Origin: Halorubrum rutilum | Lineage (GTDB): Archaea; Halobacteriota; Halobacteria; Halobacteriales; Haloferacaceae | Reading direction: 5' to 3' | DNA length: 64,000 nt | Assembly (NCBI RefSeq): GCF_024494565.1 | Contig: NZ_JANHDN010000007.1 | Span: forward strand, 124,001 to 188,000 | In this document: piece by piece, positions 31,559-32,761 of the stretch | Position numbering within the stretch: the stretch's first letter is position 1 | Layout: the number at the start of each line of letters is the position of its first letter | Notes under the pieces: model-generated | Told to the model about the DNA's origin: nothing | Databases searched by the model: none | What the model saw: only the letters and a program-made list of their open reading frames with translations | Translations under genes and position numbers: made by a program

Positions 31559-32761
31559 ATGGAGTTCCAGCTGACCGATGAACAAGAGCAGCTGCGCGAG
31601 GAGGTCCGGAAGTTCGCCGACGAGGAGATCCGACCGGTCGCGACCGAGCACGACGTCGAGGAGGCGTACCCTCACGAGGTCATGGAGGAGGCCGCGGAGA
31701 TGGGGTTGCTCGCGCCGCACGTTCCCGTGGAGTACGGCGGCGTCGGCTACTCCTCGCTGGAGAACGCGATCCTCACGGAGGAGCTGTTCGCCGCCGACCC
31801 GGGGATCGGTCTCTGTATCTCCAGCGCCGGGTTCGGCGCCGAGGCGCTGATGGAGTTCGGCACGGAGGCGCAGAAGGAGCGCGTCCTCCCCGAGGTGACC
31901 GCCGGCGACGCGGTGATGGGCTCGGCCATCTCGGAGCCGCAGGCGGGTTCGGACGTGACCTCGGTCGCGACCCGCGCGGAGAAGCGCGAGGCGCGGAGCG
32001 CCTCGGAACGGAGCGGCAGCGCCGCGGAGAAGGACGGCGACGAGTGGGTTATCAACGGCTCGAAGATGTGGATCACGAACGGCACCGTCGCCGACTACTT
32101 CGTCGTCGTCTGCGAGACGGACCCGGAGGTCGACGACCGCTACTCCGGCTACTCGCAGATCCTCGTCGAGGGCGACCGGGACGGGCTCACCCGCGACAAG
32201 ATCACCGGGAAGCTCGGCATCCGCGCGAGCGACACCGCCGAGCTCAGGTTCGACGACGTGCGGGTGCCCGAGGAGAACCTGATCGGTCAGCGCGGGATGG
32301 GCTTCCTCCAGCTGATGCAGTTCTTCGACGAGACCCGCACCGCGGTCGCCGCGCAGGGGGTCGGGATCGCCCGCGGCGCGGCCGAGCGCGCCCTGGCGTA
32401 CGCCGAGGAGCGCGAGCAGTTCGGGCGCCCGATCGGCGACTTCCAGGCGATCAAACACAAGCTCGCGGAGATGCACACGAACACCGAGGCGGCCCGCTGG
32501 CTCACCTACCGGTCCGCGTGGGCGGTCGACAACGAGTCGGGAGACCTCACGGCGCTGGCGTCGATGGCCAAGGAGTTCGCGTCGCGGGTCGCCGTCGACG
32601 TCGCCGACGAGGCGGTCCAGGTCCACGGCGGTGCCGGCTTCGTCAACGACCACGACGTCGAGCGGCTCTATCGCGACGCGAAGATCACCCAGATCTACGA
32701 GGGCACCACCGAGATCCAGAAGAACATCGTCGCCCGCGAACTCCTCGACGAGGGGATCTGA
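31559..32761 (+). CDS. Acyl-CoA dehydrogenase with a 15-16-residue inserted element
   Basis: This 400-aa FAD enzyme has the motifs MGSAISEPQAGSDVTS, VINGSKMWITNGTVAD, REQFGRPIGDFQAIK, VQVHGGAGFVNDHDVER and the catalytic-base segment QIYEGTTEIQ, followed by the normal C-terminus. It resembles short-chain/butyryl-CoA dehydrogenases. Residues about 142-157 (REARSASERSGSAAE) interrupt the middle beta domain between ATRAE and DGDEWVINGSK. They are encoded by two adjacent DNA palindromes and align with an insert in trpA. The rest of the protein is intact, so activity is probably kept. Confidence 0.92.
   Translation: MEFQLTDEQEQLREEVRKFADEEIRPVATEHDVEEAYPHEVMEEAAEMGLLAPHVPVEYGGVGYSSLENAILTEELFAADPGIGLCISSAGFGAEALMEFGTEAQKERVLPEVTAGDAVMGSAISEPQAGSDVTSVATRAEKREARSASERSGSAAEKDGDEWVINGSKMWITNGTVADYFVVVCETDPEVDDRYSGYSQILVEGDRDGLTRDKITGKLGIRASDTAELRFDDVRVPEENLIGQRGMGFLQLMQFFDETRTAVAAQGVGIARGAAERALAYAEEREQFGRPIGDFQAIKHKLAEMHTNTEAARWLTYRSAWAVDNESGDLTALASMAKEFASRVAVDVADEAVQVHGGAGFVNDHDVERLYRDAKITQIYEGTTEIQKNIVARELLDEGI
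31988..32025 (+). repeat. Double-palindrome element inserted in frame (copy 1)
   Basis: First hairpin GAGGCGC-GGA-GCGCCTC (31988-32004), second GCGGC-AGC-GCCGC (32013-32025). It encodes an extra Ser/Ala/Glu/Arg segment in the acyl-CoA dehydrogenase. The same arrangement occurs in trpA (60597-60634). Confidence 0.7.

Follow-up and report, generated by a model that had tools for sequence, protein, structure and literature searches.

An in-frame double-hairpin palindromic element in the protein genes of haloarchaea

Haloarchaea very probably carry a non-autonomous mobile palindromic element, which has a double-hairpin core of 40 nt and lies in protein genes as in-frame inserts of 42-48 nt where these were measured. 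It is best read as a haloarchaeal analogue of the Rickettsia palindromic elements (RPEs), shorter than these, class-wide and confined to a single frame. The sequences show that its copies form one family in about 40 unrelated hosts with a near-fixed frame, that the empty sites of relatives are precise, that presence and absence have changed repeatedly, and that the pairing is conserved, with compensatory changes. The element is, we infer, mobile at the present day.

The analysis starts from a stretch of 64,000 nucleotides of Halorubrum rutilum (contig NZ_JANHDN010000007.1, positions 124,001 to 188,000), hereafter the window. An earlier note on this DNA had reported a two-hairpin sequence in an acyl-CoA dehydrogenase gene and in trpA, and had suggested a small in-frame palindromic element of the Rickettsia kind. 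That suggestion is supported by the results below. The element is real in Halorubrum, as the note held, but its extent had been understated, for the repeat spans the class and is not an oddity of Halorubrum.

Results

Two copies of the element in the window

Both genes contain the two-hairpin sequence, and each copy folds into a hairpin of 8 bp and another of 5 bp. The genes are indeed unrelated, encoding an acyl-CoA dehydrogenase and TrpA according to Pfam, and 28.6 kb separates the two, as against the 28 kb given before; the extra segment, put earlier at 15-17 residues, has 16 residues in the dehydrogenase and 15 in TrpA. The features are as follows.

31559..32761, plus strand: acyl-CoA dehydrogenase gene with insert, 400 aa (translation; Pfam PF02771/PF02770/PF00441)
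31976..31984, plus strand: left copy of the 9-nt direct repeat GCGGAGAAG, which is single in empty sites
31985..32032, plus strand: in-frame insert of 48 nt, peptide REARSASERSGSAAEK, as compared with empty sites GCGGAGAAG/GACGGC in relatives
31986..32025, plus strand: double-hairpin core, 40 nt (64.4 bits with covariance model R1; fold)
31987..32005, plus strand: hairpin 1, 8 bp, loop GGA (sequence, fold)
32013..32025, plus strand: hairpin 2, 5 bp, loop AGC (sequence, fold)
32024..32032, plus strand: right copy of the direct repeat GCGGAGAAG, its first two bases being part of hairpin 2
60065..60964, minus strand: trpA, tryptophan synthase alpha chain, 299 aa, PF00290 (translation; Pfam)
60593..60637, minus strand: in-frame insert of 45 nt, peptide SEAQRASDASGETAS (empty sites in relatives L169, L184 and L194)
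60597..60636, minus strand: double-hairpin core, 40 nt (R1, 58.5 bits)
60617..60635, minus strand: hairpin 1, 8 bp, loop AGC (sequence, fold)
60597..60609, minus strand: hairpin 2, GCGGT-GAA-ACCGC, 5 bp (sequence, fold)

The core reads GCGAGGCGC-GGA-GCGCCTCGGAACGGAGCGGC-AGC-GCCGC in the dehydrogenase gene (31986-32025, plus strand) and GCGAGGCGC-AGC-GCGCCTCGGACGCGAGCGGT-GAA-ACCGC in trpA (60636-60597, minus strand), so that the two copies share GCGAGGCGC-NNN-GCGCCTCGGA-NNN-GAGCGG-N5-CCGC. The first 31 nt of this, GCGAGGCGC-NNN-GCGCCTCGGA-NNN-GAGCGG, served as a search pattern, which both window copies match with zero mismatches.

The dehydrogenase has 400 aa where its insert-free relatives mostly have 384, and an alignment with its best-matching solved structure (1ukw) leaves a gap of 16 residues with no counterpart of the insert. 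Likewise, the alignment of TrpA with its best-matching solved structure (5ey5) breaks at the insert, which has no counterpart there. Of the five AlphaFold models of TrpA, three were poor, with mean pLDDT values of 41-55. The best one has a mean of 84, and its pLDDT is below 50 at residues 111-124, the insert occupying residues 110-124, and also at residues 1-4, 56-61, 199-204 and 295-299.

It is the double hairpin, rather than hairpin 1 alone, that stands out in the window. In this GC-rich DNA, hairpin 1 alone has 4 matches at up to two mismatches against 4.47 expected, i.e. the chance level, and a longer one-hairpin pattern is weakly enriched (6 matches at up to three mismatches against 3.22, with 14 of 100 shuffles reaching 6). 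With R1 the next best place after the two copies scores 19.8 bits, the scores of the copies themselves being high by construction because both belong to the training set of the model. The fold of the trpA copy is more stable than those of its shuffles (z -3.60), while that of the dehydrogenase copy is not (z -0.69). No Rfam family matched the window at the gathering threshold.

Conservation of the pairing

In an alignment of 25 chosen copies (A2), 98.5% of the cells pair, while slid structures pair in 26-46%, and 6 cells are changed on both sides against a shuffled mean of 0.9. Three pairs are affected by these two-sided changes: in L054 and L055 a G-C has become C-G, in L024 and L053 a C-G has become T-A, and two trpA rows have T-A instead of C-G at the inner pair of hairpin 2. 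The rows of A2 and R1 were chosen, and left aside were L027, L046 and L062, which have lost hairpin 2, L014 and L048, which pair less well, and, from A2, other, less well paired matches of the 31-nt pattern. A wider set of 44 rows consists of ungapped matches of this pattern from which loop variants, LeuS rows and three chance matches were excluded; here the paired cells number 539 of 572 (94.2%). At the aspartate-aminotransferase site, two forms occur (L024/L053/L061 and L094/L096/L098), whose stems differ from each other and are each self-complementary.

Distribution across haloarchaea

The genome closest to the window among those compared has 24% of the sampled words in common with it. In 52 Halorubrum genomes, the 31-nt pattern with up to three mismatches has 59 matches, in 34 of the genomes, against 1 for the reversed control; L015, L038 and L041, all with three mismatches, are probably chance matches. 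In the class as a whole, at least 178 of 391 Halobacteria genomes, from at least 51 of 86 genera, have a match to R1 at E<=1e-6 when 16 candidates are scored per genome. When 150 candidates are scored in each of 16 chosen genomes, the number of matches at E<=1e-3 is 4-28 per genome, the copy-rich genomes G197 and G380 having 28 and 18, respectively. In one genus, which we take to be Halorussus, 17 of 18 genomes have 2-14 matches at E<=1e-5. An exact pattern of 23 fixed and 2 two-fold bases, scanned over the genomes of 84,980 species, gave 39 loci, all with haloarchaeal titles, in genera that include Halorubrum, Haladaptatus, Halosimplex, Halobium, Halobaculum, Halorussus, Natronorubrum, Natrinema, Haloarcula and others; the same pattern had 0 matches in viral contigs.

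These counts bear on the idea that the segments are convergent low-complexity Ser/Ala/Glu loops of GC-rich halophiles in which palindromes arise by chance. High GC does make hairpins common, and hairpin 1 alone is no more frequent in the window than expected; the excess of the 31-nt pattern over its control and the restriction of the exact-pattern loci to haloarchaea, in unrelated hosts, speak against convergence so strongly that we find it scarcely conceivable.

Reading frame and host genes

The element nearly always lies in one and the same frame. Frame 1 is open in all 39 exact-pattern loci; since these correspond to about 15 hosts, with trpA accounting for 14 and dehydrogenases for 9 of the loci, the bias in frame is not based on 39 independent events. 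Among 60 covariance matches, taken partly from the same genomes as the exact-pattern loci, 51 are in frame 1 by the GC pattern of codons and 57 when their translations are read. The remaining three (L256, L292 and L298) have a frame-1 stop within or after the element and lie outside recognised genes; five ORFs scanned at these places have zero Pfam matches. At L232, frame 1 is open with no recognised host and a longer antisense ORF is present. L199, which had been considered an antisense copy, was rejected as such, its frame-1 ORF having a tetrapyrrole methylase domain, and L265 lies in the C-terminal tail of a TetR-like ORF, at the same place as L312. The Halorubrum copies that were read, the chance matches L015, L038 and L041 apart, have a single common frame. 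As the exact pattern and R1 were both derived from coding copies, detection favours such copies.

Inserts that are skipped in translation occur as the byps of yeast mitochondria and in gene 60 of phage T4, and the haloarchaeal element is likewise a short hairpin insert in protein genes. A bypassing element, or any other insert absent from the protein, would however need neither a near-fixed frame nor inserts of 42-48 nt that are divisible by three, and we consider this explanation hardly credible.

The 284 pattern matches in the collected loci, many of them at the same place and a few due to chance, fall into 56 clusters of flanking peptides, a few of these spurious, and the hosts are some 40 unrelated proteins. 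The element lies inside the best matched stretch (NCBIfam or Pfam) in 29 of 41 host ORFs, or in 31 hosts when TrpA and the dehydrogenase are added, and in three of the 29 (MoaC, a ResA-like protein and a HEAT protein) it is at the very end of that stretch. In the other 12 it is outside, mostly beside the stretch or in the tail; these are AcsA-like, DUF1028, HemQ-like, GNAT, HerA-like, hydrolase, LarC, PAS, GCS2, TetR, S4e and tetrapyrrole methylase proteins. Several of the family matches are below the curated cut-off of NCBI and provide a family name only.

The hosts include aspartate aminotransferase, CarB, NadB, PurH, LeuS, PurK, a histidine kinase, acetate-CoA ligase, SufD/SufB, UvrC, GlyS, ValS, RibB, MoaC, a GlcD/YdiJ-like oxidase, a HemQ-like protein, Ppc, the E2 component of 2-oxoacid dehydrogenase, a Hel308-like helicase, UvrA, D-2-hydroxyacid dehydrogenase, LysX, ArgS, LarC, class 1 fructose-bisphosphatase, MetE, NrdJ, a TetR-type regulator, a ResA-like protein and ribosomal protein S4e, as well as, by Pfam, DUF1028, AhpC, GST, GNAT, M29 peptidase and other proteins. 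In Halorubrum, the hosts besides trpA and the dehydrogenase of the window are paralogues of this dehydrogenase whose corresponding loop carries the insert, the aspartate-aminotransferase-like gene, LeuS (L375, L027) and a PAS-domain protein (L055). The gene for S4e (L325, 1501-1690) carries in its C-terminal tail three full tandem copies spaced by 48 nt and part of a fourth. The encoded peptide follows the pattern [SRGC]-E-A-x-x-A-S-x-x-S-G..., and in 167 distinct contexts it is rich in Ala, Ser and Glu, with a mean net charge of -1.1 per 15 residues. Each host protein would thereby gain a small flexible loop.

Empty sites

The earlier note had proposed that presence/absence polymorphism be looked for, and filled and empty sites are indeed found among the relatives of four genes, i.e. 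those for the dehydrogenase, TrpA, CarB and the aspartate aminotransferase, in which clean empty sites shorter by 42-48 nt were read. Nor is the insert common to all haloarchaeal homologues, since 5 of 40 genomes have a filled dehydrogenase gene and 27 of 52 a longer trpA loop, and many more copies turned up in the genome searches; either universal presence or a lack of further copies had been named as an outcome contrary to the proposal.

For the dehydrogenase, the 40 Halorubrum-group genomes with a match comprise 5 filled and 35 empty sites by match length; at the DNA level, 5 filled and 20 empty sites were read, the reading covering 25 of 30 loci with the insert of the window taken from the window sequence. 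The empty form in relatives is GCGGAGAAG-GACGGC or a near form, and the filled form is GCGGAGAAG-[39 nt]-GCGGAGAAG-GACGGC or a near form, 48 nt longer. Among the best 121 database proteins, 17, including that of the window, have 400 aa and the 16-residue insert, which in 5 of the 17 has a strongly diverged form (EAQNDPNSSGS), and 104 are without it. The filled dehydrogenase gene of G034 contains partial copies of the element in tandem.

The distant dehydrogenase family encoded at L009 and L010, on Natronorubrum plasmids, has its insert at the same loop as the gene in the window, and thus several paralogues hold an insert at that loop; the matches of the plasmid search were mainly dehydrogenase genes.

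The trpA copy of the window is a clean insert of 45 nt as compared with GGGGCT-GAAACCGGC in L169. By match length, the loop is longer in 27 of 52 Halorubrum-group genomes and not in 25, and 50 of the 52 places were read at the DNA level; among the 27, L174 and L175 are too changed for the element to be recognised, and L156 and L171 are without hairpin 2. CarB is filled in 2 of 18 genomes of one genus and shorter by exactly 48 nt in the other 16 (2 filled and 14 empty when read at the DNA level). The aspartate-aminotransferase-like gene is filled in 7 of 51 genomes by length, with 7 filled and 23 empty sites read, and its inserts, of 48 or 42 nt, lie within a run of Asp codons.

Turnover and constraint at the trpA site

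In a tree of the trpA flanks with 51 rows, 28 of them counted as filled or partial, among these the two in which the element was not recognised, and 23 as empty, at least 16 presence/absence changes are needed, at least 8 of which are forced by well-supported branches. Placing the filled rows in a single clade is rejected (p-AU 3.6e-42). Clustering of the state on this tree does not exceed that after shuffling (171 of 500 shuffles are as low), which points either to fast turnover or to recombination that swaps alleles; recombination between alleles may make up part of the 16 changes.

The 24 filled Halorubrum rows, cited here in preference to a larger set that has three genomes twice, were compared codon by codon using peptide anchors, which left L150, L171, L174 and L175 unmatched. 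In the element, amino-acid identity is 0.68 against 0.87 and 0.92 in the flanks, while synonymous-codon identity is 0.87 against 0.71 and 0.76. With the codons kept more and the amino acids less than in the flanks, and with compensating changes in the stems, it is the palindrome that is kept and not the peptide. Any of three causes would be sufficient for this: a shared origin in the recent past, homogenisation, or selection that acts on the hairpin.

Discussion

Age and mobility of the insertions

An alternative that we regard as unlikely, although it has to be weighed, is that the copies are ancient single insertions which have been inherited vertically and lost many times through recombination with empty alleles, without any recent mobility. 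The presence of the same sites in distant genera (trpA, CarB and the dehydrogenase loop) also fits old insertions with many losses. The trpA site is common to several genera and the CarB site to several family codes; the loop triplet is common to species at one site, as with GTA in PurH of Natrinema and Natronorubrum and with AAA in CarB of two Haladaptatus; and filled and empty states that do not cluster on the trpA tree are what allele exchange would produce. Against this, many hosts are limited to one genome or genus among the loci collected, and the stems and codons are better kept than the flanks while the amino acids are not, unlike in an old neutral insert.

Junctions and the route of movement

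Among the inserts that were read there is no fixed junction. The check for target-site duplication suggested by the earlier note had a mixed outcome: the dehydrogenase insert has a direct repeat around it and the CarB insert perhaps has one, trpA and the aminotransferase show no evident repeat, and target-site duplication as a general feature was rejected. In 36 copies preceded by AE, AEK or AER, the residues around the element repeat K on both sides in 20 cases and R in 1; the repeat of K would fit a one-codon repeat in dehydrogenases, without being proof of it.

Movement in trans by a Y1 transposase of the IS200/IS605 type, as for the PATEs of Haloquadratum, would agree with an element that consists of hairpins only and whose trpA and aminotransferase copies lack an evident target duplication; the PATEs are described, in the part of the source consulted, as being without target duplications and as having near-terminal palindromes related to IS605-type transposons (PMC3119063). 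A search of six genomes for Y1 transposases (PF01797) found no autonomous partner or enzyme: there was no match in G197 and G380, both copy-rich, and the 12 matches (some overlapping) in the other four had no like hairpin in their surroundings, the best R1 score being 13.6 bits. As insert lengths also differ by whole codons, we hold this explanation to be quite improbable.

The preferred reading, a palindromic element that spreads through coding DNA, would work as follows. The copies that survive are those found within protein genes, with a single orientation and phase, and they would be translated, without harm, as a hydrophilic, mildly acidic segment that surface loops can tolerate, while insertions in other frames or at other sites would be eliminated. 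As to the route, our guess is that the hairpin may be copied from another copy during DNA repair or replication, by hairpin-templated or ectopic insertion, after which homologous recombination would spread filled and empty alleles; templated copying is preferred because the lengths of the inserts (42, 45 and 48 nt) and of the flanking repeats (9, about 3 and 0 nt) vary. A bolder version is possible but rather doubtful: that a self-propagating double hairpin of 45 nt is still moving through coding DNA across the class by hairpin-templated copying without a dedicated transposase, placing a flexible acidic loop into core enzymes and the tail of a ribosomal protein, with the palindrome kept by the copying itself.

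Related repeats outside the coding family

Some of the weaker R1 matches are repeats that, in Halorubrum at least, look intergenic. The multi-hairpin repeats of this genus (among L099-L115), whose intergenic position was judged by eye, have stem 1, GCGAGGYGC..GCRCCTCG, in common with the coding element, and one class of them also has hairpin 2, GCGAGCGGYGAARCCGCGAGC, in exact agreement with the trpA copy over up to 21 nt. This class differs in having a longer loop 1 (about 11 nt) and in that its unit lies within longer arrays of hairpins. The multi-hairpin repeats may be a reservoir of the coding element, and the class with both stem 1 and hairpin 2 may be its source or a sister family.

In a second class (L001-L006, L008, L101, L102, L106 and L113), GCGAGGCGC-NNN-GCGCCTCTGG-(A/C)AGCCGG..., hairpin 1 is as in the coding element and the second hairpin is different. 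The window itself has a weak third resemblance at 56140-56184 (minus strand; 19.8 bits with R1), in a region that looks intergenic and has many short GC-rich inverted repeats; within it is the sequence GGGGAGCGGTGAAACCGCGAGC, in which hairpin 2 of the trpA copy is contained. In addition, the multi-hairpin repeats of L095, L099, L103, L108, L109 and L114 lie, as judged by eye, between inverted copies resembling the T-arm and 3' end of a tRNA (TTTGAACC ... GGTTCAAATCCC in L108), and are possibly a separate element linked to tRNA genes.

Comparison with known systems

RPEs are described in the parts of the reviews consulted as palindromic repeats of 105-146 bp (about 150 bp in another review) with terminal inverted repeats, which lie in frame in many unrelated protein genes and encode a conserved peptide (Ogata et al. 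2000, cited in PMC2229807 and PMC10969869); in Rickettsia guanylate kinase the insert is said there to be translated in a working enzyme (PMC2229807). The haloarchaeal element resembles them in being a palindromic repeat of many copies (4-28 in each of the 16 chosen genomes), in lying in frame in unrelated genes while being absent from orthologues of four genes, and in encoding a conserved peptide in frame 1. According to those descriptions, it is unlike RPEs in its length of about 45 nt, its two independent hairpins, its near-exclusive frame and its distribution across an archaeal class. By analogy it would thus work like an RPE without being classed as one, being set apart by the described size and build.

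Among other systems likened here by their descriptions, the protein-coding palindromic repeats of Wolbachia (Ogata et al. 2005, cited in PMC2996958) are likewise in-frame palindromic inserts in protein genes, in another lineage, and those of Methanocaldococcus jannaschii (2005, cited in PMC2229807 and PMC2996958) are likewise archaeal and fused into protein genes, but concern one methanogen, to go by the title. The PATEs of Haloquadratum walsbyi, transposase-free mobile elements with palindromes, no target duplication and ties to IS605-type ends, and the A-type small mobile repeats of the same species, of about 110 bp with terminal inverted repeats, are also haloarchaeal and transposase-free; in-frame insertion into housekeeping genes in a fixed phase is not described in the part of the source consulted (PMC3119063). 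Unlike in a MITE, the ends of the element do not pair with each other in the fold, and target-site duplication is not general. A description of the repeat was not found among the matches listed for open-licence PMC literature, and the peptide strings SEARSAS, EARSASE, EARSASD and SEAQSAS were absent from open-licence PMC papers.

Conclusions

Judged by its sequence, the repeat seems to act as a very small mobile element that owes its survival to translation. Selfish DNA inside core coding genes has its best-known examples in intracellular alphaproteobacteria, for which weak selection offers a natural explanation, and a class-wide family in free-living archaea would argue against weak selection as a requirement. 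As the element is small and has a near-fixed frame, assayable hosts, and filled and empty orthologues in culturable species, one can test directly what an insertion costs, how the element moves and how protein loops originate. The element would also explain puzzling indels in the protein alignments of haloarchaea.
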